Source: Halobaculum marinum
GTDB taxonomy: Archaea > Halobacteriota > Halobacteria > Halobacteriales > Haloferacaceae
NCBI RefSeq assembly: GCF_029338555.1
Contig: NZ_CP119989.1
Coordinates: 2,852,001-2,916,000 of the forward strand
Direction: 5' to 3'
Length of the DNA: 64,000 bases
The notes below the pieces were generated by a model. It did not search any database and had not been told where the DNA came from. It worked only from the letters and a program-made list of their open reading frames with translations. Within the stretch, counting starts at the first letter, position 1; the number at the start of each line of letters is the position of its first letter. Of this stretch, positions 4,505-16,435 are shown one piece after another. A program made the translations under genes and the position numbers.

Positions 4505-5060
4505 ACCAGAGCGGACGGCGGGTGGAGGGATAGCGGTTTTTCGAGATCCGTTCGGTGTCCGGGCGAACTCCGTGCAAACTCCGTTCAAAATCGGTGCCGT
4601 CGGGCGGTTTTTGTGCCGAGCGTGGCGTCGGCTCGCTCAGTTCCCGAAGTTGTACGTCGTGACCTGTCCGTCGACGCCGATCTGGAGGTTGTCGACGTGC
4701 ATCGTCGCTGGCCCCCAGCCGGAGCCGACGCCCACGCCGAAGCCGAATCGGATCGTCGCGTCGGGGTACAGTTCGAGCAGGCGCGTCCAGGTGACGGGCT
4801 GGGAGATGCTGCCCTCGCCCAGCGGGGCTGTGCCGGGGCCGGCAACGAACGACGCGGCCGCGCTCTCGGCCTGCGCGACCTGGTAGAACACGGGCGTGTC
4901 GCCGGGTGATATCTCGGGGCGCGCTCCGTGAGAACGTGGACTATCGACCCCGAGGGCGACGGTGACCCGTCGGGCGTGGCCGTGAGATGTCACTGCCGAG
5001 ATCACCTCAACCAGCAATAAATTCTACCCCAGATGATGTAGCTATTCCGACGGTACCCGT
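4505..5060. other. Spacer with decayed sequence upstream of the glycan operon
   Basis: About 600 bases without an intact recognised gene. The part nearest 4505 holds the start region of the molybdopterin oxidoreductase. The middle (about 4637-4950) holds the likely gene remnant described separately. From about 5015 to 5100 the base composition drops sharply to A/T-rich, unlike the neighbours, and includes the promoter of the secreted protein. Confidence 0.5.
4637..5017 (-). pseudogene. Probable 3' remnant of a secreted beta-sandwich protein gene
   Basis: An open frame of 126 codons whose last 90 residues (from about GDTPVFYQVAQAE to the terminal TTYNFGN) read like the C-terminal end of an extracellular beta-rich domain (FGFGVGVGSGWGPATMHVDN). 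The first 35 residues look like non-coding drift and there is no signal peptide. The 5' end of such a gene appears to be missing, replaced by the A/T-rich stretch at 5018-5075. It may be a decayed gene or a short orphan protein. Confidence 0.4.
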
Positions 5061-5073
5061 GTAATTTAATTAC
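5061..5073 (+). promoter_or_regulatory. Palindromic A/T-rich promoter element of the glycan operon
   Basis: GTAATT-T-AATTAC is a perfect 6-bp inverted repeat around one base, in an A/T-rich island within a G/C-rich genome. It lies 40-52 bases before the ATG at 5113, so it could be the TATA box with a leader of some 20 bases, or an operator overlapping it. Confidence 0.5.
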
Positions 5074-5112: not shown

Positions 5113-6057
5113 ATGGGGGGGAGCACACAGCAGCGCAGACAGCGACTGCTAACGGCAGTAGTGGTATCAATACTGATAACATCGGTCGTCGCCTTCGCAG
5201 GCACCTCTGCGGCGGTGCGGACGACCGTCGACGGCCCCGATCAGGTGACGAAAGGCGACAGGGTCGAGTTCACGTCGACGGCCGACGTCCGCGACGACGA
5301 GCGCGTCCCGGTCGAGAGCCTCACGCTGACGATTCGGCCCGAAGACTCGCCGGACGAGGAGGTTCGCGTGACGGTCGCGCCGAACGGCACCGTCTTGTCC
5401 ATCTCGCCGTCGACCGGCGTGGTCGGCCAAGGCGAGATCCGTATCGAACAGCTTCGTCGGTCGCTCGACGTCGCCGTCTCCGGCACCGACGGCGCGTACG
5501 GCTACGGTTACGGCTACCAGGGCGGCATCGACGAGCGCGCCGGCGAGAACGGTTCCGACGCCACAGTCGGCTACGGCTACGGCTACGGCGACACGTCGAT
5601 CACTGTCGAGGCCGCCTTCAGTTCCAAGGCGCTGAAGCACGGGAACTACGAGGCCTTCCTCACGGTGAACACCGGCGACGAGCGCGACCAGTTCCGCTCG
5701 AACGTCGAGTCGTTCGAGGTCCTGGTCCCCGGGAACGGCTCGCCGCCGGACAACGGCGAGGGTCCCGACAACCGACCCGGTGACGACGTGAACGAGGCGT
5801 CTGACGACTCCGAGGACGACGACTCTGACGAGGTCGACTCTGACGATGAGGACTCCGAGGGAGACGACTCTGACGAGTCCGAATCCGAGGACGACGACGC
5901 CGAGGAGCACGAGTCCGACGAGGACGACGCCGACGCCGAGGACGACGACCGCGGCGAGGGGAACGGACCACCCGAGAACCCCGGAGCCGGCAACGGCCCG
6001 CCCGCGCACGCGAACGGCAACGGACCGCCCTCCGACGTCCCGCGAGGCGGACGCTAG
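5113..6057 (+). CDS. Secreted protein with Tyr-Gly repeats and an acidic Asp/Ser/Glu tail
   Basis: A 314-residue exported protein. Residues 10-34 are a Sec-type signal peptide (VVVSILITSVVAFAGTSAA). Residues 35-205 form a beta-rich domain (LTLTIRP, VEAAFSSKALKHGNYEAFL) interrupted by two tyrosine-glycine repeats (AYGYGYGYQGG and VGYGYGYGD). Residues 225-280 are a run of Asp, Ser and Glu, and the end repeats the motif GNGPP three times. There is no C-terminal membrane helix or PGF motif, so it is released or held by other proteins. It is the first gene of the surface-glycan operon, 15 bases before the flippase, suggesting a role at the cell surface. No family recognised. Confidence 0.8.
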   Translation: MGGSTQQRRQRLLTAVVVSILITSVVAFAGTSAAVRTTVDGPDQVTKGDRVEFTSTADVRDDERVPVESLTLTIRPEDSPDEEVRVTVAPNGTVLSISPSTGVVGQGEIRIEQLRRSLDVAVSGTDGAYGYGYGYQGGIDERAGENGSDATVGYGYGYGDTSITVEAAFSSKALKHGNYEAFLTVNTGDERDQFRSNVESFEVLVPGNGSPPDNGEGPDNRPGDDVNEASDDSEDDDSDEVDSDDEDSEGDDSDESESEDDDAEEHESDEDDADAEDDDRGEGNGPPENPGAGNGPPAHANGNGPPSDVPRGGR

Positions 6058-6072
6058 CTGACGGGAGCCACC

Positions 6073-7413
6073 ATGACAGACCAAAATACGCTCCCGTTCC
6101 AGCGACTGCTCCGTCGATTCGCACGCGCCGTCCGGGCCGTCGGCACCGACGACCTCGTCCACCACGGCGGAGTGATGGCCGCGGCGACCGTCGTCGCCGG
6201 CGGCTTCAACTACGGCTACCAGGTGTTCGTCGGCAGGTACCTCGGCGCCGAGGCGTACGGCGCCTTCGGCGCGCTGTTCGCGCTGTTCTACCTGCTGCAC
6301 GTCGTCGGTCGCGGCGTCAGGTTCAGCGCCTCGCGGTTCGCCGCCGAACTCGATGGACCCGACGAGCGCGCCGCGTTCTACCGCGGCTTCCTGCTGCGCT
6401 CGGTCGCCCTCGGCGTCGGCGGCACCGTCCTGCTCGTCGCCGCCAGCCCCGCCATCGCGGGGTTCCTGGGCCTCGACTCCGCGGCGCCGGTGACGGTCGT
6501 CGCCGCCGCCATCGGCGTCGAACTCGTCCTCACCGCCAACCAGGGCACCTTGCAGGGGCTCCAGCGGTTCGGCGCCCTCGGCGTCTTCAAAGTCGCGCAG
6601 GCGGCCGTGAAACTCGCGCTCGGCGTCGCGCTCGTGCTCGCCGGCTTCCGGCTGTACGGCGCCTTCGCCGCCGTCGTGCTCGGCTCGGCGGTTGTCCTCG
6701 TCGCCTCGACGGCGTACCTGCTGCGCGAGTTGGGGACGGCCTCGGCGGCGCAGACGGCGTTCCGCTACCGCCGGGCGTACCGCTACGTCGTCCCAGCGGC
6801 CATCGCCGGCTTCTGTCTCACCGTGCCGGCCAACGCCGACGTGGTCGTGGTGAAGCACTTCTTCCCGGCGGTCGACGCCGGCCACTACGCGGCTGCCTCG
6901 GTGCTCGGGAAGGTGCTGTTGTTCCTGCCGATGGGCATCTCGACGGCGCTGTTCCCGAAGGTGACCGCCGACCACGCCGCCGCCCGAAGCGAGCGGCTCC
7001 ACGCGCTGTTCGACCGCGCGCTCGGGTACGCGGCGCTCGTCGCCGCCGCGGGCGCCGTCGGCTTCTGGCTCGTCGCCGAGGAACTGCTCTTGCTCGCGTA
7101 CGGCCCCGAGTTCGTCGCCGCCGCGCCGCTGGTCCGCTGGTACGGCCTCGCCATCTCGGCGGTCGTGCTCGCGGTCGTCGTGCTCAACTTCGAGTTGGCG
7201 CGCGACCGGACCGGCTACGTCTACCTGTTCGCGCTGGGTTCGGTCGCCGAACTCGCGCTGATCTGGACGGTCCACGACACGCTGATCCAGGTCGCCCAGC
7301 TGGTGCTCGTCGCCAACGCGGCGCTGTTCCTCGCCGGCTTGGCGACGGTGAAACTCGACCTCGACCTGCACCCGACCCGCCTCACGAACGCCCTCTCGAC
7401 CTCGAACGAATGA
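6073..7413 (+). CDS. Polysaccharide/oligosaccharide flippase, Wzx (PST/MOP) family
   Basis: A 446-residue protein with about 12-14 membrane helices spread over the whole length and the usual N-terminal block of this superfamily (VAGGFNYGYQVFVGRYLGAEAYGAFGA is at about residues 42-68). It should move a lipid-linked glycan from the inner to the outer face of the cell membrane. The stop overlaps the start of the following glycosyltransferase by four bases, showing translational coupling. It is similar in type to the archaeal AglR-like flippases, but the exact lipid-linked substrate cannot be told. Confidence 0.88.
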   Translation: MTDQNTLPFQRLLRRFARAVRAVGTDDLVHHGGVMAAATVVAGGFNYGYQVFVGRYLGAEAYGAFGALFALFYLLHVVGRGVRFSASRFAAELDGPDERAAFYRGFLLRSVALGVGGTVLLVAASPAIAGFLGLDSAAPVTVVAAAIGVELVLTANQGTLQGLQRFGALGVFKVAQAAVKLALGVALVLAGFRLYGAFAAVVLGSAVVLVASTAYLLRELGTASAAQTAFRYRRAYRYVVPAAIAGFCLTVPANADVVVVKHFFPAVDAGHYAAASVLGKVLLFLPMGISTALFPKVTADHAAARSERLHALFDRALGYAALVAAAGAVGFWLVAEELLLLAYGPEFVAAAPLVRWYGLAISAVVLAVVVLNFELARDRTGYVYLFALGSVAELALIWTVHDTLIQVAQLVLVANAALFLAGLATVKLDLDLHPTRLTNALSTSNE

Positions 7414-9443
7414 CCGACGACACACACACAGACGAGACCGCCGCCGCACAGCCCACAGAACACACGACCGACCGCTCGGTCGTCGTCCCGGTCTACCGGG
7501 AGCGACCCGACGTGTGGACGGGGCTCGTCGAGCGCCTCCTGACCGCCGGGTGGGACGAGGTCGTCGTCTGCCTCGACGCGCCCGACGACGACGCTCGACG
7601 CGCCGCCGAGCGCGTCGCCACACACGACGGCGTTGCGCTGGCCGTCAGCGACGAGCGTCGCGGGAAGGGGGGTGCCCTCCGCGCCGGCCTCGCGGTCGCC
7701 GACGGCGACGTACTCGGCTACGTCGACGCCGACGGCGCGGTCGCCGTCGAAGCACTCGACCGCCTGTACCGCACCGTCGAGTGGGGAACCGCCCCGGTCG
7801 CCGCGGGGTCGCGCGACGCCGGCGACGCCGACCGCGAGGGACAGTCGCTCCTCCGGCGAGCGCTCGGGTGCGGCTACCGCCTGCTCGCTCGCGGGGCGAC
7901 CGGCGTCCCGGTCACCGACTTCCAGTGCGGGGCGAAGGCGTTCCGCCGGGAGGTGTGGACCGCCGTCGCCGACGACATCGACGAGACGGGGTTCGCCTTC
8001 GACACCGAACTGCTCGCGCTGGCGCACCGTCGCGGCTTCGAAATCCGCGAGGTCCCCATCGCGTGGAACGACCCCGGCGAGAGCGACGTGGACGTGGGCA
8101 CCGACGTGCCCGCCCTCCTCCGCTCGCTGGCGCGGATCCGGGGCACCCTGCGGGAGACGCCGCGGGCGATGCCGGACGGCGGCGCAGGCGTGGCGGCCGA
8201 CCCCGAGCACACGAACGCCGACGGCGGCGACGAGGCCGACGAGGCCGACGACGCAGACGACGACCCGATGCACGTCGCGCTCGTCACCTCCCACCCGCCG
8301 AACCGTGGCCACCTCGCGGAGTACGGCGAGGAGTTGGCCCGCTCGTACGCCGCCCGCGACGACACCGAGGTGACGGTGCTGGCGCGCCGGACCGACCGCG
8401 CGCCCAACGTCGAGGACCGCGGCGACTACGAGGTGCGGCGCGTGTGGGAGCGCGACTCCGCGCGCTCGGCGTGGCGACTGCTCCGCGAACTGCGCTCGGA
8501 CAAATACGACGCCGTCCAGTTCAACCTCCACATGACGTACTTCGGGACGACGAACGCCTACCGCTTCCTCGGCCTCGCGCTCCCGCCGCTGTGCCGGGCG
8601 ACGCTGGACGTGCCCGTCGTCACGACGCTACACGACCTGCTGGAGATCGTCGAGGACGACCACGTCGACGACACCGTCGGCACACTCGAACGCGTCGGCG
8701 CGCGGGCGGCGACCCAACTGGTCCTCCTGTCGGACGCGACGACCGTCACCGCCGCCGAGTACCGCGACATCGTCGCCGAGCGCTACCCGCTGGGCGACCC
8801 GGTGCACGTCCCGCACGGGACGTTCAAGCGCGCCGACGGCGGGACGGTACCGCTCGACCCGCCGCTGCGACTCCTCGTGTTCGGCTTCCTCGGCCCGACG
8901 AAGGACATCGAGACGACGGTGCGGGCGTTCCGGCAGGTCCGCCAGGCGGTCCCGGACGCCGAACTCGTGATCGCGGGCGGCTCCCACCCGGACTACCCCG
9001 GTCACCGTGAGGAGTTGGAGTCGCGCTTCGGCGAGGAACCGGGCGTCGAGTTCACCGGCTACGTCGAGGAGGACGAGTTGGACGACGTGTGGGGGTCGGC
9101 CACGGCGGTGCTCATGCCGTACCACACCTGCACGGGCGTCAGCGGCGTGTTCCAACTCGCGAAGTCGTACGGCAAGCCCGTCGTCGCCTTCGAGAACGAG
9201 GGGATGCGCACCTCGACCGTCGAGACGGGCGGCGACGCGGCGTTCGTCAACCCCGGCTCCGCCACCTCATTGGCCGACGGCATCGTCGACCTCTGGGAGG
9301 ACCGCGAGCGACTCCGCGACATCGCACACACGAACGCCGCCGCCGGCGACGCCGTCAGCATGGCCGAGACGACCGACCAGTTCGTCGACCTGCTCACAGC
9401 GTCGTCGACCGCCGTCGCGACCGACGGAGGTGAGGAGGCGTGA
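7410..9443 (+). CDS. Two-domain glycosyltransferase: GT2 fused to GT4
   Basis: A 677-residue protein made of two enzymes. Residues 22-250 are a GT2 domain of the dolichyl-phosphate glycosyltransferase kind (VVVPVYRERPD; acidic metal motif D106-x-D108; FQCGAKAFRREVW). Residues 265-286 are an acidic linker. Residues 287-670 are a GT-B fold GT4 glycosyltransferase (LLVFGFLGPTKD; GVSGVFQLAKSYGKPVVAFENE as the nucleotide-sugar binding part, about 590-612). No membrane helix is seen, so it acts at the cytoplasmic face. It overlaps both neighbours by four bases. An internal ATG at 8268 could start the GT4 part alone, but the frame is continuous. Confidence 0.9.
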   Translation: MTDDTHTDETAAAQPTEHTTDRSVVVPVYRERPDVWTGLVERLLTAGWDEVVVCLDAPDDDARRAAERVATHDGVALAVSDERRGKGGALRAGLAVADGDVLGYVDADGAVAVEALDRLYRTVEWGTAPVAAGSRDAGDADREGQSLLRRALGCGYRLLARGATGVPVTDFQCGAKAFRREVWTAVADDIDETGFAFDTELLALAHRRGFEIREVPIAWNDPGESDVDVGTDVPALLRSLARIRGTLRETPRAMPDGGAGVAADPEHTNADGGDEADEADDADDDPMHVALVTSHPPNRGHLAEYGEELARSYAARDDTEVTVLARRTDRAPNVEDRGDYEVRRVWERDSARSAWRLLRELRSDKYDAVQFNLHMTYFGTTNAYRFLGLALPPLCRATLDVPVVTTLHDLLEIVEDDHVDDTVGTLERVGARAATQLVLLSDATTVTAAEYRDIVAERYPLGDPVHVPHGTFKRADGGTVPLDPPLRLLVFGFLGPTKDIETTVRAFRQVRQAVPDAELVIAGGSHPDYPGHREELESRFGEEPGVEFTGYVEEDELDDVWGSATAVLMPYHTCTGVSGVFQLAKSYGKPVVAFENEGMRTSTVETGGDAAFVNPGSATSLADGIVDLWEDRERLRDIAHTNAAAGDAVSMAETTDQFVDLLTASSTAVATDGGEEA

Positions 9444-9637
9444 GCCAGCAGTCGCACGAGCACGAGCGCGACCGCCCGACCGGTGCGGACGTGCTCGACC
9501 GACTCGCCGGCGACACCTGCGTTCAGCCGACGTGCGACGGGACCCTCGACCGCCAGCCGTTCAAGGGGACCGACGCCGTCGTCTGCGACGACTGCGGGAC
9601 GCCGCCCGTGCGGGTGTGGGAGGTGGCCGATGACTGA
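9440..9637 (+). CDS. Zinc-ribbon microprotein (HVO_A0556-like)
   Basis: A 65-residue protein with four cysteines in a ribbon layout: C27-x4-C32 and C49-x2-C52 (VVCDDCGTP). It starts at a GTG overlapping the stop of the glycosyltransferase and its stop overlaps the ATG of the sulfatase-like gene, so it is firmly in the operon. It resembles the small haloarchaeal zinc-finger proteins named after HVO_A0556; the name is a recollection. Function unknown, perhaps a regulator or assembly factor of the cluster. Confidence 0.75.
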   Translation: MSQQSHEHERDRPTGADVLDRLAGDTCVQPTCDGTLDRQPFKGTDAVVCDDCGTPPVRVWEVADD

Positions 9638-11084
9638 CCGCGGCGGCGACGGCGACGGCGGCGCTCGCGAGGCGTCCGACGGGGACGAGGCGTCGGGGTC
9701 GGCGTTCGACGACGTCACCCGACGGCTCGTCCAGCGACTCCCCTACGGCGTCAAGCGCCTGCTTGCGGTGCCGTACAACCACGTCCAGCGCGTGCGGGCC
9801 GACCGCGCGTTCGCCCGGCGGGCGCGGGAGTTCCAGTCGCTGACGCCGGGTGCCGACGCGCCGCGCCACGTCGTCTGCGTCGTCGTGGACGCGCTCCGCG
9901 CGGACGTCGTCGACGCCGAGACGACGCCGTTCCTCGCCGACCGACGCGTCGCCAGCGCGGTCACCCCGTCGCCGTGGACGTTCCCCGCCGTCACCTCGCT
10001 CGCGACGGGGCGGTACCCCCACGAACACGGGTCGATGCGGCAGTCGGACGACGTGGACCGCGGCGCGACGGACCTCGTCATCCCGCCGACGCTCCCCGAC
10101 CACGAGCGGACGCTGCCGGAGGTGTTCGCCGCCGCCGGCTACGACACCTACGGCGGGTTCGCGTTCCACATGCCGTTTTTCGCGCTCGGCGGGCGATTCG
10201 CGACGAACCGCGTGTACGACGACGCACCCGCCGACGACGTGCTCGGCGACTTCCTCGACTGGTTCGACGGCCGCCGCGACGGGCGCACGTTCTCGTACGT
10301 CCACCTCGGCGACCTCCACGAACCGGTCGACCCGCCGGCGCCGTACTGGGACCGCTACGACGTCGACGACTCCATCGAGGGGATCCGGCGCTGGCGCTTC
10401 CGCGAGGAAGCCCACCCGGGGCACGAGGGGGAGCGCTACCGCGACCACCGGCGCCGACTCTACCGCGCGGCGGCCACCCACGTCGACGACCGACTGGCCG
10501 TGTTGCGCGAGCGCCTCCCCGACGACGTGGCCCTGCTCGTCACGGGCGACCACGGCGAGGCGCTGTGGGAGCAGACGTCGCTCGACCGGCGGACGTTCCA
10601 CGACTCCCGACCCGCCTACGGCATCGACCACGGCGGCACGCCGTTCGAGGCCATCGCACGCGTGCCGCTGGCCATGGAAGGCGTCGACGTCCGCTCGGGC
10701 GGCGGCACCCCGTCGCTGGTCGACGTGGCGCCGACCCTGCTCGACGCGCTCGGGCAGATGGAGGCGCTGGCGACGACCGGGTGCTCGCTGTCACGGGGCG
10801 TCCCCGGCGACCGCGTGCCGCTCGTCGAGGCCGCGCGCTACGGCCACGAGAAGAAGGCCGCCTACCGCGACGGCTGGAAACTGGTCGTCTCCCGCGGCGA
10901 CGACGCCGCCGTGGGGTTCGACCTCCCCGACGACCCCGGGACGACCGCCCGCGAGGCCGACCTCCCGGCGGACGTGGAAGCGGCGCTGTACGACGCGCTC
11001 CCCCCGTGGCCGGACGGGAGCGACCCGGAGCGACGCGTCTCCGGCATGGCGCAGCAACGACTGGAGGACCTCGGCTATGTGTGA
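9630..11084 (+). CDS. Sulfatase/alkaline-phosphatase-superfamily enzyme of the glycan cluster
   Basis: A 484-residue protein of the sulfatase-like fold. The first metal-binding aspartate motif is VVVDALRAD (D87, about 83-92) and the later one is TGDHGEALWE. The usual Cys/Ser-x-Pro-x-Arg formylglycine motif is absent; in its place is SPWTFPAVTSLATGRYP, offering a threonine (T117) or serine. No signal peptide or membrane helix is seen, so it may work inside the cell. It could transfer or remove sulfate or phosphate groups on the glycan. The ATG at 9630 overlaps the zinc-ribbon gene; the longer upstream frame has shadow composition. The end motif RLEDLGYV matches the second sulfatase-like gene at 25463. 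Confidence 0.85.
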   Translation: MTDRGGDGDGGAREASDGDEASGSAFDDVTRRLVQRLPYGVKRLLAVPYNHVQRVRADRAFARRAREFQSLTPGADAPRHVVCVVVDALRADVVDAETTPFLADRRVASAVTPSPWTFPAVTSLATGRYPHEHGSMRQSDDVDRGATDLVIPPTLPDHERTLPEVFAAAGYDTYGGFAFHMPFFALGGRFATNRVYDDAPADDVLGDFLDWFDGRRDGRTFSYVHLGDLHEPVDPPAPYWDRYDVDDSIEGIRRWRFREEAHPGHEGERYRDHRRRLYRAAATHVDDRLAVLRERLPDDVALLVTGDHGEALWEQTSLDRRTFHDSRPAYGIDHGGTPFEAIARVPLAMEGVDVRSGGGTPSLVDVAPTLLDALGQMEALATTGCSLSRGVPGDRVPLVEAARYGHEKKAAYRDGWKLVVSRGDDAAVGFDLPDDPGTTAREADLPADVEAALYDALPPWPDGSDPERRVSGMAQQRLEDLGYV

Positions 11085-11096
11085 GGTGAGACGGGG

Positions 11097-13883
11097 ATGA
11101 GCGACTCGCAAGGCACCCGCTTCGCGCTCGACCTCTCGCTCGACGACGTGGCCCCGCACGTCGGCGGCGTCGGCGCCTTCTTGCTGGCGTACGCCCTCCT
11201 CTTGCGCGGGATCGAGTTGGGCCGGCTGTACGCATTCGGCGACTTCGTCCCGTACTACGGGTCGCGCGCGTTCGCGAAGTTCCTCGGCACGTGGCACGAC
11301 GGGGGCCTGGGGTTCCCGTACGTGTACAACGTGATGCCGGCGTATCTCGGCACGGTCACGGCGGTCGGCGGTGCGCTGGGACAGAATCTGTTCTACCTCG
11401 CGCTCGTCCCCGCCGGCTTCGCGACGTTCCTCGTGTTCGCCCGGCGGTTCGTCGAGCGACCCGTCCCGCGCTACCTCGCGGCGGGTGTGTACGCCATCAA
11501 CCCCGTTACGATCGGCGAGTTCGTCAACGGCGGCGTCTCGACGCTCATCGGCTTCGTCGGCTTCCCGCTGATCGTCCACTACCTCTACCGGATCGACGAG
11601 GAGGACGCGTGGCGCCCCGCCGCACTCGTCGGCGTCGTCTTCGGCGCGACCGCCATCGTCCCGTGGCTCGTGTTCTGGATGATCGGGCCGTTCGCGGCAT
11701 ACTTCGCGTACCGCTCGCGGCGTGACCCCCGGAAGTTCGCGAAGTTCGTCGCCGGCGGGACGCTCGGTGTCGTGCTCTCGCTGCCGAACGTCCACCACAT
11801 CGTCCAGCGGGCCGCCGGCTTCGGTGACGGCGACGGCGTGCTGTGGACCACCCTCCAGTGGAACTACGAACAGGCCGACCCCCTCGCGGTGGTCCGCCTC
11901 GCGGGCAACCACGGGATGCTCGCGATGAACCAACTCGGCTACAACACCGACCCGACGATGGTGGTCGGACTGGTCGTCCCGGCGGTCGCGCTGTTCGCGT
12001 ACGAACGCGACCGGCTCCGCCTCTACTACGCCATCGCCGTCGGCTGTGTCGGGTTCGTCGTCCTCACCGGACTCGGCCTCACGTACCCGCTGTTCGAGAC
12101 GGTCCCGCTGTTCTGGTCGGTGCGCAACCCCGCGAAACTCCAGTACCCGCTGCTCCTCTCGCTGAGCCTCTTGTTCGGCGCCGGCCTGGAGACGGTGCTC
12201 CACGGCGCCCGCGGCGCGGTGACGGGGCTGGACATCGACGCCCACCGCGGTCGCGCGAGCGACGCTCGCGACCCGCTCCTCCGAGGGGTCGTCGTCGGCC
12301 TCGTCGTGCTGTCGCTGGTCGCGTACGCCGCCCCCGCCGCGGGCGCGTACGGACTGGAGGGCGTCCGCGGCGACGACTACGCCGTGCCCGCCGAGTACGA
12401 CGCCGTCGCCGACGAGGTCGACGGGCGGGCGCTGTGGGTGCCGTACGGCTACACCACCCAACTGCGCTTGCGCGAGACGCACCCGAACCACGTCGGCATC
12501 AAGAGCGGCGGCGTCGTCCAGGGCATCCCGAACGTTGACTACGTCACCCGACTGTTCGAGGACGTCGCCGCCGGCGAGCCGGTCCACCAACGATTGCGCG
12601 ACCTCGGCGTCGAGTACGTCGTCGTCGAGTCGGACCCGCCGGGCGACTACGGCGCCGGCGCGCCCCGCGTGCAGTCGAAGTGGGGCGCACCGTGGCTGTT
12701 CGGCGACCCCGCGACGCTGAACGAACGCTTCGCCACTTCCGACGCCTACGAACGCGCCTTCAGCGCCGACGGCTTCACCGTCTACCGCGTCACGGGCGTG
12801 CCCGACCGGGACCGCGTCGTCAGGAACGAGGGCCTCCACGCGGTCGTGTACCCCGAGGAGACCGACACCGAGGTCGTCGGCGACAACCTGCTGGCGAACC
12901 CGTCGTTCGACGACGGCACCGGCGGGTGGTGGACGCCGCCCAACGAGTCCGGCCGGACGACGACGTACGTCGAGACGGCCGACGGCGGCGCGGTCGAACT
13001 CCGCGTCTCTGGTGACACCCAGCCGTTGCCCGTCGCACAGGCGACCGCCACGCGCGACGACTACCCGTACCGCGTGAACGTCGACGCGACGGGCGACGGC
13101 GTCGCCACGCTGTACTGGTACGAGGGCGAGAAGTCGCCCGACTCGCTCGTCTCCCGCGAGGTCGTCCCCCTGTCGGCGTTCCCGAAGTCGGTGACCGCGA
13201 AGGGTGACACGCTGTCGATCCGGATCAAGCCGAACGCCTCCAGCGAGGTCGTCGTCCGCGAGGTGACCGTCGCCCGGAGCAGTTACCCGGCGGCGACGGA
13301 GTTCACCGCCGCCAGCGGGGGCGTCCCCGGCGTCGTCGTCGACGGGCGGGACGACCCGCCCGGGAACGCGACCGTCGTCGCGGCCAACCTCGGCCCCGAG
13401 GCGGCCAGCGACGCCGGCGCCGACGTGCGCATCGTCGACGCCGAGACCGTCCTCGACGGCGACCTCGCGTTCGACGACGACTACCGGCAGGGCGCGGGCG
13501 TCCTGCTGGCCGACGGCGAGCACCCCGACGCCGTGCCCGACGACGCCCGCCTCGTCACCCACGAGACCGAGGCGGGCACCGTCCTCGACTACTGGGTCGT
13601 CGGCTCGTTCGACGACACCCCGGTGACGACGGTCCGGACCTCCTACGCCGCCGGGTGGAGTGGTTCGCCCGACGCCGAGCACTTCCGTGCACAGGGGTGG
13701 GCGAACGGCTTCACCGACACGACGCCCGACGAGGTGTCATGGACCGGCGGCGGCCTCCGCGGCCTCGTCGTTCGGGTGTGGCTCGGTGCCTGGGCGGTGA
13801 CCCTCCTCGTGCTCGCGGGCCCGCCGGTCGCGCGGCGACTTCGAGAACGGTTTGACGACGGAGACCAGACCAGTCTCCCGTGA
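11097..13883 (+). CDS. Giant GT-C-like membrane glycosyltransferase/hypothetical surface-glycan protein
   Basis: A 928-residue protein. Residues 20-430 contain about 10-12 membrane helices with a conserved acidic loop after helix 1 (YAFGDFVPYYGSRAF), as in GT-C enzymes that use lipid-linked sugars on the outer face. Residues 440-870 are a large extracytoplasmic part, including a possible carbohydrate-binding beta-sandwich (NLLANPSFDDGTGGWWTPP, about 598-616). A last helix (about 885-905) returns to the membrane. It may add sugars to the flipped glycan. It overlaps the next, related gene by four bases. The family is a guess from topology. Confidence 0.75.
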   Translation: MSDSQGTRFALDLSLDDVAPHVGGVGAFLLAYALLLRGIELGRLYAFGDFVPYYGSRAFAKFLGTWHDGGLGFPYVYNVMPAYLGTVTAVGGALGQNLFYLALVPAGFATFLVFARRFVERPVPRYLAAGVYAINPVTIGEFVNGGVSTLIGFVGFPLIVHYLYRIDEEDAWRPAALVGVVFGATAIVPWLVFWMIGPFAAYFAYRSRRDPRKFAKFVAGGTLGVVLSLPNVHHIVQRAAGFGDGDGVLWTTLQWNYEQADPLAVVRLAGNHGMLAMNQLGYNTDPTMVVGLVVPAVALFAYERDRLRLYYAIAVGCVGFVVLTGLGLTYPLFETVPLFWSVRNPAKLQYPLLLSLSLLFGAGLETVLHGARGAVTGLDIDAHRGRASDARDPLLRGVVVGLVVLSLVAYAAPAAGAYGLEGVRGDDYAVPAEYDAVADEVDGRALWVPYGYTTQLRLRETHPNHVGIKSGGVVQGIPNVDYVTRLFEDVAAGEPVHQRLRDLGVEYVVVESDPPGDYGAGAPRVQSKWGAPWLFGDPATLNERFATSDAYERAFSADGFTVYRVTGVPDRDRVVRNEGLHAVVYPEETDTEVVGDNLLANPSFDDGTGGWWTPPNESGRTTTYVETADGGAVELRVSGDTQPLPVAQATATRDDYPYRVNVDATGDGVATLYWYEGEKSPDSLVSREVVPLSAFPKSVTAKGDTLSIRIKPNASSEVVVREVTVARSSYPAATEFTAASGGVPGVVVDGRDDPPGNATVVAANLGPEAASDAGADVRIVDAETVLDGDLAFDDDYRQGAGVLLADGEHPDAVPDDARLVTHETEAGTVLDYWVVGSFDDTPVTTVRTSYAAGWSGSPDAEHFRAQGWANGFTDTTPDEVSWTGGGLRGLVVRVWLGAWAVTLLVLAGPPVARRLRERFDDGDQTSLP

Positions 13884-15760
13884 GACCCTGGGGGGACGAC
13901 GAGCGACCCGAACGGCGGCGCGAGGACCGCCTCGCCGCCGCGCTGTTCGTCGCGCTCGCGCTCGCCGCGTTCGCGCCGACGTTGGGGGGTGGGTTTCTCC
14001 TCCGCCTCGACATGGTGTTCGCGCCCGACGCCTCCCACCTCCAGTTCGCGCTCGACGCGAAAGGGCCCCTCTACTACGGTCGCCTCCCGTTCGTCGCCCT
14101 GTTGGACGCCGCGAGCGTCGTCGTCCCCGACTGGGTCGTCCAGCGCGCGGTCGTGCTCGGAATCGTCGCGGGCGCGGGATTCGCGGGGTACGCCGCCGCC
14201 GGCGCGGTGCTGGCGCGCGAGTCCGGCGTCGGCGACGTCACGACTGACGCGCCCCGCGGCCCGTTCGCGGCCCACCTGTTCGCCGGCGCGCTGTACGCGT
14301 GCAACCCGTTCCTCTACGTCCGCCTGCTCGCCGGGCAGTGGTACTTCGCGCTCGGCTACGCCGTGCTCCCGCTCGCGGTCGTCGCGTTCGACCGGTACCT
14401 CGCCGGCGAGCGCGAGCGACCCACCCGAGCGCTCGCGTGGACGACGCTCGTCGCCGTCTTCGACCCCCACGCGGCGGTGCTCGCGGCGGTCGCCGGCGGC
14501 GTCCTCCTCGCGGTACGGGTCGCCGTCGACCGCGACGCCGCACGGCGGACGCTCGTGCGCGCGGGGCGCTTTTGTGGGCTGGCACTGGCCGTCAACGCCT
14601 ACTGGCTGGTGCCCGCGACCACGGCGGTCGCCGGCGGCGGGTCACAGCTCTCGACCGTCGACGGCGCCGACCTCGCCGCGTTCAGCCCGCGAGGGAGCGT
14701 CCTCGGCAAGGTCCCGCTGTCGGTGAGTATGCTGTACGGCTTCTGGCGCGGCGGCTACACGTACCCGTTCGACGTGCTGCCGCTGGCGGTCGTGGTCGGC
14801 TGTTTCGTCGTCGTGCTGGCGCTGGCGGTGTACGGGTGGCTCGTGTCGACGGACGCGCTCGGACCCGGACTGGCACTCGTCGCCGTCGTCGGTGCGGTGC
14901 TGGCGCTCGGTGTCGCGGTCCCGGCGACGGCGCCGCTGTACCGGGCGTTCGCCGCGACACCCGTCGGCGCGGGCATGCGCGAGGCGGGGAAGTTCGTCGC
15001 TCTCGTCGCGCTCGCGTACGCCCTGTTGGGCGCGCGCGGCGTCGCGGCCCTCACGAGAGAACTCGACGCGACACTGACGGCGAGGTCGGTCGCCCCCGAC
15101 CGTCGGACGGCACTGTCGGTCGCGCTCGTCGTGCTCGTCGTCGCCCTCCCGCTGACGTACGGGTTCCCGATGGTCGCGGGATTCGGCGGGCAGTTCCAGC
15201 CGACGGAGTACCCCGACGACTGGCACGCCGTCGACGACCGACTGGACGCCGACGACGGGGAGTACCGCGTCCTCTACCTGCCGTGGCACCAGTACATGGC
15301 CTACGACTGGGCCGGTGGCACCGTCGCCGCGCCAGCGCCGCTGTTCTTCGGCCCCGACACGGTCGCGAGTCGCGACCCCGATCTGGGGGTCGGCAGTCAG
15401 GCGACGGACCCGACCCATCGACGGCTGGACGCGCTGGTGGCGGAGCCGCCGGGCGCGGGCTTCGGCGAGGCGGTCGCGCCGCTCGGCGTGAAGTACGTCG
15501 TCGTCTCGCAGACGGCGGACTACGAGCGGTACGCGGGCCTCGACGACGACCCCGACCTCGGCGTCGTCTACCGCGGTGAGCGACTCGTGCTCTACGAGAA
15601 CCGGGCGTTCGACGCCGCCGACGCAGACCCGGATTCGTGGCCACCGGACGGACCGCGGGTGCCGTGGGGCGCCCTCGGTGTCGGGGGCGTGGTCTCCGCG
15701 GGGAGTGCGGTCGCCCTCCGACGCACGGTCGATGGGTCGAAGCCGGAGCGGTCCCGGTAA
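13880..15760 (+). CDS. Second GT-C-like multi-pass membrane protein
   Basis: A 626-residue protein starting at a GTG inside the stop of the previous gene. About 12 helices occupy residues 18-435; an early outer loop (RLDMVFAPDAS) and the later TPVGAGMREAGKFVALVAL have counterparts in the upstream protein (FWSVRNPAKLQYPLLL), so the two look like distant paralogues. An outer domain (about 440-600) and a final helix follow. It lacks the long beta-sandwich part. Likely to be a GT-C-type transferase or a glycan-assembly partner. It is the last gene of the cluster; the next gene begins 30 bases on with its own start. Confidence 0.72.
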   Translation: MRPWGDDERPERRREDRLAAALFVALALAAFAPTLGGGFLLRLDMVFAPDASHLQFALDAKGPLYYGRLPFVALLDAASVVVPDWVVQRAVVLGIVAGAGFAGYAAAGAVLARESGVGDVTTDAPRGPFAAHLFAGALYACNPFLYVRLLAGQWYFALGYAVLPLAVVAFDRYLAGERERPTRALAWTTLVAVFDPHAAVLAAVAGGVLLAVRVAVDRDAARRTLVRAGRFCGLALAVNAYWLVPATTAVAGGGSQLSTVDGADLAAFSPRGSVLGKVPLSVSMLYGFWRGGYTYPFDVLPLAVVVGCFVVVLALAVYGWLVSTDALGPGLALVAVVGAVLALGVAVPATAPLYRAFAATPVGAGMREAGKFVALVALAYALLGARGVAALTRELDATLTARSVAPDRRTALSVALVVLVVALPLTYGFPMVAGFGGQFQPTEYPDDWHAVDDRLDADDGEYRVLYLPWHQYMAYDWAGGTVAAPAPLFFGPDTVASRDPDLGVGSQATDPTHRRLDALVAEPPGAGFGEAVAPLGVKYVVVSQTADYERYAGLDDDPDLGVVYRGERLVLYENRAFDAADADPDSWPPDGPRVPWGALGVGGVVSAGSAVALRRTVDGSKPERSR

Positions 15761-15790: not shown

Positions 15791-16435
15791 GTGAAGCGGA
15801 TCGAGTTCGTCGCCACCTACCCGCCGGAGCTCCGTCACCCGCTCCACCGCGGCATCGTGAACGAGGCGACGGTGGCGACGCGGGCGGAGCTTGTAACCTG
15901 GGGCCCGACGGCGGCGGTGACGGCACTCCTGTGGGTCGACGCCGACGCCTCGACGACCGACGACCTGCTCGCGAGCATCCCGTCGGTGTCGGCCCACAGC
16001 ATCGTGTCGAGCGACGCCGGCACGTACGCGTTCGTCCGTCAGACCGAGTACGAGTTCCCCGACCCGGTGTTGTCGCTCGTCGATGACGCGACCGCCGCCT
16101 TCCTCCCGCCGGTCACGTTCCACGACGACGGGACACTGCGGGTCGAGGCGGTCGGAGAAGCGGCCGACCTCCACGACCTCTACGCGGCGGTGTCCGCTCT
16201 CGCCGACGCCCGGATCGAACGCGTCCACGAGTTCGAGCGCCGACGCTCGCCGGCGGCGCTCACGACCCGCCAGCGCGATGCGCTCGAGGTGGCCGCCGCC
16301 GTCGGCTACTACGAGGTTCCCCGAACGGGGAGCATCGACGACGTGGCTGCCGAACTCGACTGTGCACCCAGCACCGCGGGGGAGCTCCTCCGGAAGGCCG
16401 AAGCGACCGTCGTCGACGATTACACGCGCTCGTGA
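15791..16435 (+). CDS. Bat-type regulator with C-terminal HTH_10 domain
   Basis: A 214-residue haloarchaeal regulator. The C-terminal part (about 155-210, LTTRQRDALEVAAAVGYYEV and then VAAELDCAPSTAGELLRKAE) is the bacterio-opsin activator HTH_10 DNA-binding domain. The N-terminal 150 residues are a family-specific beta-rich sensor domain with no recognised ligand site. GTG start. It follows the glycan genes by 30 bases on the same strand, so it may be partly co-transcribed with them, but its target is unknown. Confidence 0.85.
   Translation: MKRIEFVATYPPELRHPLHRGIVNEATVATRAELVTWGPTAAVTALLWVDADASTTDDLLASIPSVSAHSIVSSDAGTYAFVRQTEYEFPDPVLSLVDDATAAFLPPVTFHDDGTLRVEAVGEAADLHDLYAAVSALADARIERVHEFERRRSPAALTTRQRDALEVAAAVGYYEVPRTGSIDDVAAELDCAPSTAGELLRKAEATVVDDYTRS

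Follow-up and report, generated by a model that had tools for sequence, protein, structure and literature searches.

The main contig of a haloarchaeon that belongs to Halobaculum as defined by GTDB carries a compact seven-gene operon. We regard it with moderate confidence as a multi-component transmembrane glycosylation module whose target is a surface glycan and which has a secreted Tyr-Gly protein as its dedicated partner. The stretch of DNA analysed, called here the window, is 64,000 nucleotides long (G000:C1:2852001-2916000). A preliminary description of the window had proposed a surface-glycan operon acting as a unit, and this proposal is now well supported by the conserved order of the genes, the perfect co-occurrence of g1, g6 and g7 among 391 haloarchaeal genomes and the largely congruent gene trees.

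Organization of the operon

Seven open reading frames (g1 to g7) fill positions 5113-15760 of the plus strand, at the limits given earlier. The list of open reading frames bears out the earlier picture of tightly packed genes that mostly overlap by four to eight bases: overlaps of 4 or 8 bp are present at four of the six junctions (g2/g3 -4, g3/g4 -4, g4/g5 -8 and g6/g7 -4), and the remaining gaps measure 15 bp (g1/g2) and 12 bp (g5/g6). Details of the features are presented in Table 1. A short divergent open reading frame immediately upstream of g1 (4637-5017, minus strand) resembles in its sequence (GFGVGVGSGWGPATMHVDNLQIG) the C-terminal part of a secreted protein and is possibly a remnant. 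A gene for an HTH_10 regulator (15791-16435) lies on the same strand 31 bp downstream of g7; it was rejected as an operon member since it is found beside the operon in no relative.

As had been noted before, the seven-gene operon lacks genes for an oligosaccharyltransferase, for nucleotide-sugar enzymes and for an S-layer protein. The sole STT3 match of the genome, the STT3/AglB gene, is located about 0.6 Mb away (C1:2238544), and therefore the operon is not an N-glycosylation (Agl) cluster. Neither a Wzy polymerase nor an initiating phosphoglycosyltransferase was matched among the seven proteins by Pfam or NCBIfam, whose profiles could miss a very divergent Wzy.

Table 1. Features of the glycan operon, in positions of the window.
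Feature	Position	Strand	Basis
Candidate TATA element, AT-rich TAATTTAATTA	5062..5072	+	About 40 bp 5' of the g1 start; sequence read directly, function inferred
g1, 314-aa secreted protein with a signal-like N-terminus, Tyr-Gly repeats in a beta-rich domain and an acidic tail	5113..6057	+	ORF list, hydropathy
g1 first GY repeat	5500..5517	+	Sequence, alignment
g1 second GY repeat	5569..5589	+	GYGY core invariant in 9/9 aligned haloarchaeal g1 proteins
g2, Wzx-type flippase, 446 aa (transport role predicted)	6073..7413	+	PF01943 2e-14, PF13440 2e-11, both above Pfam cut-offs
g3, fused GT2-GT4 glycosyltransferase, 677 aa	7410..9443	+	PF00535, PF13692, above Pfam cut-offs
g3 GT2 domain, dolichyl-phosphate-sugar-synthase-like	7476..7955	+	DAD motif conserved
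g3 GT4 domain	8328..9326	+	Pfam
g4, HVO_A0556-family zinc-finger microprotein, 65 aa	9440..9637	+	NF041921, 69.6 bits against a cut-off of 65
g5, alkaline-phosphatase-superfamily enzyme, 484 aa	9630..11084	+	PF00884 E 5e-17, above Pfam cut-off
g5 Thr117 in PWTFPAVTS, predicted nucleophile	9978..9980	+	At the Cys/Ser position of sulfatases
g6, large GT-C-like membrane protein of 928 aa with a helix at its C-terminus	11097..13883	+	Profile comparison, hydropathy
g6 Asp49 (FGDF/L), invariant; candidate GT-C catalytic Asp	11241..11243	+	Alignment; role inferred
g6 CBM-like beta-sandwich, aa 605-730	12909..13286	+	PF02018 CBM_4_9, predicted model
g7, MmpA/AftD-like GT-C membrane protein, 626 aa	13880..15760	+	NF053599 E 1.3e-52
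g7 Asp44 (LDMVFAP), invariant; candidate GT-C catalytic Asp	14009..14011	+	Alignment; role inferred

Flippase, fused glycosyltransferase and zinc microprotein

The flippase, the fused glycosyltransferase and the zinc microprotein named in the preliminary description are each recognized above the cut-offs of their families. The closest NCBIfam models of g3 are two, AglJ and dolichyl-phosphate hexose transferase, with scores below the cut-offs of these models. Hydropathy indicates no membrane helix in g3, which is thus without the anchor of GtrB-like synthases. In the record of Halobaculum litoreum DT92 (L013, ~6549-8596), the g3 frame breaks and the g5 matches are split, reflecting either sequencing indels or real decay.

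Although g4 scores above the cut-off of the HVO_A0556 zinc-finger microproteins, most members sampled elsewhere sit in other contexts. The microprotein was rejected as a marker of the operon because the family is widespread, its members are located elsewhere in most of the sampled genomes and no g4 was detected in the orthologous operons of G008, G010 and G367.

A phosphatase-superfamily enzyme in place of a sulfatase

The earlier label of g5 as sulfatase-like holds at the level of the family (PF00884) and fails at the catalytic position, where threonine replaces the cysteine or serine of sulfatases. This residue is threonine in all eight g5 sequences that were correctly extracted. The metal-binding Asp motifs are retained, and the Cys/Ser-X-Pro/Ala-X-Arg signature of the formylglycine sulfatases is absent from g5. 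Because of the threonine in PWTFPAVTS we do not call g5 a sulfatase. Neither a signal peptide nor a membrane helix is seen in its hydropathy profile, and in view of the lacking export signal the enzyme is placed in the cytoplasm, where it may act on lipid-linked intermediates. PDB sequence searches with g5, g6, g7 and the A1 and A2 profiles returned nothing relevant. In plasmids, the searches turned up no more than one MmpA-like protein of Nonomuraea and some dispersed sulfatase-like genes of haloarchaea in the vicinity of other glycosyltransferases.

Two large membrane proteins

Hydropathy identifies g6 and g7, like g2, as membrane proteins. g7 aligns with the MmpA family (NF053599) over positions 4-538 of the 543 in the profile, with 179 bits, below the curated cut-off of 210. 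All six homologues from the operons then known are matched likewise below the cut-off, and none of the 391 haloarchaeal genomes exceeds it. Since the curated cut-off was tested and missed, g7 is treated here as a divergent homologue and not as MmpA itself. The model of the AftD GT-C domain (PF11847) does not match g7 itself, while it matches one of the operon homologues (E 1.6e-8) and, with 41 bits where the gathering score is 26, an archaeal relative that is not part of such an operon. In the genome of Haloferax volcanii laboratory strain H26, no homologue is detected with either the MmpA or the AftD profile.

A protein of Nonomuraea gerenzanensis (L113, 8896-10437) reaches 385 bits, above the cut-off of the MmpA family, although this genus is, to our knowledge, without mycolic acids; 'trehalose lipid delivery' is therefore probably too narrow a name for the family. 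We know of no archaea that make mycolates, either. MmpA (NCgl2761/Rv0226c) has a role in the acetylation and transport of trehalose lipids, no transferase activity having been shown for MmpA itself, and it is reported to have no homology outside the corynebacteria and mycobacteria, save a partial one to AftD (PMC8698533).

By sequence g6 matches no GT-C family; its only link to one is a weak similarity of its profile to that of g7, which extends over 336 columns with an hhalign probability of 41%. PF02018 (CBM_4_9) matches three of the six g6 members, with a best value of 7.5e-5, and the modelled segment of residues 605-730 resembles carbohydrate-binding modules (CBMs) and other jelly-roll folds with VIA Z values of 8-10, which indicate only a common beta-sandwich, with CBMs among others. 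AlphaFold2 models from four-row alignments have a mean pLDDT of 40 for g7 and 36 for g6, too low for a fold assignment; AftD (6wbx) appeared in the Foldseek search of the g6 model only at rank 24 (E 0.059, TM 0.1) and was discounted. The preliminary description had spoken of two giant GT-C-like proteins. This is supported for g7 through the MmpA and AftD profiles, whereas the GT-C nature of g6 is indirect.

Another haloarchaeal glycan cluster (L075, G110:C2:596000-615999) is a cousin of the operon that has no g1. It encodes a GT-C-like protein of 984 aa, two enzymes of the phosphatase superfamily and a flippase that shares 51% identity with g2.

The secreted Tyr-Gly protein

The reading of g1 as a secreted Tyr-Gly-repeat protein agrees with its signal-like N-terminus, which forms the only hydrophobic N-terminal peak (residues 12-30), and with its GY repeats, a run length reached by none of 20,000 shuffles. 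Seven of its eight tyrosines, counted by eye, fall within the two GY runs, and 24% of its residues are acidic. No Pfam family was matched by g1, and a literature search on archaeal proteins with GYGYG returned nothing relevant. Conservation in the alignment is highest at the GYGY core; the N-X-S/T sites are not conserved. g1 is the sole secreted protein of the operon and is missing from none of the operons, and its strong homologues are restricted to operon-bearing haloarchaea. Distant relatives in G370, G240 and G432 adjoin GT2/GT4, flippase or GT-C-like (DUF2298) genes, which suggests that a protein of the g1 type accompanies glycan loci even without g7.

Conservation of the operon among haloarchaea

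The order g1-g2-g3-(g4)-g5-g6-g7 recurs in nine more genomes, from several genera and three families: three are likewise of the Halobaculum type, one is Halorarius litoreus, and the remaining five represent other genera in three families. The genes are thus not scattered in relatives without a conserved order, the outcome that would have spoken against the preliminary description, with g4 as the dispensable member. The more distant versions carry one extra phosphodiesterase-type gene (PF01663) 5' of g6. In the longer version of G114, a secreted right-handed beta-helix (NosD-like) protein, perhaps a polysaccharide-modifying enzyme, is inserted (L074, 6157-8385).

Strong matches to the g6 profile are found in nine of the 391 haloarchaeal genomes. 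The same nine are matched by the MmpA profile, which has one further partial match (G384, 4e-6), and by the g1 profile with E < 1e-69. Fisher tests of the co-occurrence of g1, g6 and g7 give 1.9e-18 and 1.3e-15, values that overstate the case because kinship is ignored. Gene trees of g2, g3, g6 and g7 are largely congruent, so the seven genes evolve together as one operon; no detail was drawn from the trees of g5, g3 and g4, for which g5 of two genomes, g3 of G008 (frame breaks) and g4 of Halorarius were not correctly extracted. In the gene trees, two genera from the same family as the window cluster with a different family, which suggests horizontal transfer. Seven operon-free Halobaculum genomes retain the downstream neighbourhood (an SDR gene, often together with others) and the region is therefore a variable site.

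Relatives of g7 and Tyr-Gly partners in other archaeal classes

Searches with the g7 profile recover strong relatives, at E values from 1e-108 to 1e-150, in four genomes of other classes (G467, G485, G522 and G613), to which G716 was added later; their identity to haloarchaeal g7 is about 30-40%. All five of these methanogen-type genomes encode a secreted protein with a GYGYGY repeat of the g1 kind. In G613 and G467 its gene directly follows that of the g7 relative on the 3' side, and the protein has a PGF-CTERM tail in addition to GYGYGYGY repeats; in G485 and G522 the Tyr-Gly proteins are located ~17-20 kb from the g7 relative, in or beside the same locus, the repeat of G522 being shorter; in G716 the protein is encoded elsewhere in the genome. 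Within the class of G613, a g1 relative (E < 1e-20) is present in all four genomes with strong g7 relatives versus 4 of 116 others (Fisher 8.5e-6). In the G485 locus (L137, G485:C2:296000-315999, ~10000-10500, plus strand), a GYGYGY surface-protein frame crosses three in-frame TAG codons and could encode a surface protein that contains pyrrolysine or else be a copy in decay; downstream of it lies another open frame, whose signal peptide is similar.

The idea of the preliminary description that g1 is the defined partner of the pathway gains support from these Tyr-Gly proteins and from the distant homologues in other glycan loci. The most fitting role for g1 is that of a dedicated partner at the surface, be it an acceptor, an anchor, a scaffold or a binder.

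The loci of the g7 relatives are polysaccharide loci that hold a large GT-C-like protein and many glycosyltransferases. In G613, G485 and G522 they also contain a flippase and rmlABCD-like (rhamnose-type) genes, as judged by size, order and sequence beginnings. In G716 the CBM_4_9 domain is found above the cut-off in the protein that follows the large GT-C protein, while Halobaculum carries the CBM-like part inside g6.

Proposed mechanism and alternatives

From the gene content, conserved order, co-occurrence and homology described above we infer the catalytic steps, sugar, carrier and acceptor of a transmembrane glycosylation scheme. The GT2 domain of g3 would load a sugar onto dolichyl phosphate in the cell interior, and its GT4 domain may add a second sugar or build an acceptor. 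The lipid-linked sugar would be flipped outward by g2 and transferred outside onto a surface glycan by g7, of the MmpA/AftD type, together with g6 and its CBM-like domain, with the secreted g1 as the putative dedicated acceptor or scaffold. g5 would act in the cytoplasm as a phosphotransferase or phosphodiesterase and not as a sulfatase, and g4 may be a small accessory zinc-binding protein. CBM-like sandwiches occur in GT-C enzymes that act on glycans (PMC11127046, PMC8035078), and AftD and its relatives hold their acceptor polysaccharide with such domains (PMC11127046); by analogy, the CBM-like domain of g6 argues for a glycan acceptor. In favour of the module we count the conserved DAD motif of GT2, the threonine of g5 and the aspartates of g6 and g7, as well as a helix-free g3 beside membrane-bound g2, g6 and g7. 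Against it we count the score of g7 below the MmpA cut-off, the low pLDDT of the g7 and g6 models, the lack of a GtrB-like anchor in g3 and the weak tie of g6 to g7.

The glycan might alternatively be a free or loosely bound exopolysaccharide, for which g3 would make a short lipid-linked unit and g2 export it, g6 and g7 would serve outside as polymerase and chain-extending enzymes and g1 would hold the polymer at the surface. Such a role is possible but on balance doubtful. The methanogen-type loci with their rmlABCD-like genes, many glycosyltransferases and flippase are suggestive of it, as are the beta-helix protein inserted in one haloarchaeal operon and the CBM-like domain of g6; however, the operon is without a Wzy-type polymerase, an initiating phosphoglycosyltransferase and a nucleotide-sugar gene, and a system of two glycosyltransferases is small for a polymer repeat.

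That g1 itself is glycosylated by the module, on Asn, Ser/Thr or the Tyr of its Tyr-Gly repeat, appears unlikely. Such a modification would agree with the conservation of its GYGY core, with its constant presence in the operon as the one secreted product, with a pairing with gene 7 that extends to other classes and with the tyrosine O-glycans of bacterial surface-layer proteins (PMC2943079). Against it, the operon contains no oligosaccharyltransferase, the N-X-S/T sites are unconserved, a Tyr-Gly repeat could equally bind sugar or self-assemble, and certain g1 relatives occur in loci or genomes without gene 7. A more specific form, in which the Tyr-Gly repeat would be a multi-site glycan acceptor for an archaeal tyrosine O-glycosylation, with the sugar attached by an MmpA/AftD-type GT-C protein and conserved from haloarchaea to methanogen-type archaea, is quite improbable; if true, it would make mycobacterial MmpA a member of a general family of extracytoplasmic glycosyl transferases. 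We consider very improbable a system for glycolipid export or maturation like that of corynebacterial MmpA, since the whole-length alignment of g7 with a family acting in trehalose-lipid acetylation and transport is opposed by its score below the cut-off, the lack of a TmaT-, MtrP- or MmpL-like gene (Pfam) in the operon, the lack of known mycolates in archaea and the Nonomuraea protein above the cut-off in a genus not known to have them.

The presence of full-length MmpA relatives in archaeal glycan operons suggests a general GT-C family that handles glycans outside the cytoplasm. The function of the MmpA family thereby becomes testable in mycolate-free organisms. The recurrent Tyr-Gly pairing points to an archaeal surface structure of which we found no description, and the operon offers a compact genetic unit for studying archaeal glycosylation of an extracellular target where the cluster holds no oligosaccharyltransferase.

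Comparison with known systems

As far as we could find in the literature searched, this type of system is already known, while its archaeal MmpA/AftD-type component and the conserved Tyr-Gly pairing are undescribed. In comparison to MmpA and AftD of Corynebacteriales (PMC8698533), g7 is alike in its near-complete alignment with the MmpA profile and in the match of its archaeal relatives to the AftD GT-C model, and differs in its score below the MmpA cut-off and in having no mycolate context. The acidic exopolysaccharide of Haloarcula hispanica, with AepG, likewise involves a dolichyl-phosphate sugar in a haloarchaeon, but its cluster includes AglB, and we know of no MmpA-like or Tyr-Gly gene described for it (PMC9943897). 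AglD-AglR-AglS of Haloferax volcanii, which adds the final mannose of the N-glycan (PMC3871713), is, as proposed for the operon, a haloarchaeal set of a dolichyl-phosphate-sugar synthase, a flippase-like protein and an extracellular dolichyl-phosphate-sugar transferase. The operon differs in the fusion of GT2 with GT4, in putative transferases that are of the MmpA/AftD type and include a CBM-like domain, and in the additional g1, g4 and g5. The bacterial three-component scheme, in which a lipid-linked sugar is made inside and flipped before GT-C transfer outside, is represented by CsbB-GtcA-YfhO, GacI-GacK-GacL and GtrB-GtrA-Gtr (PMC8035078, PMC11127046). The parts of the operon fit this scheme in each of its proposed steps; among the bacterial systems Wzx-type flipping also occurs, and some members have carbohydrate-binding domains. 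The operon differs in being archaeal, in its pair of GT-C-like proteins, in an enzyme of the phosphatase superfamily and in a secreted Tyr-Gly partner that is conserved.
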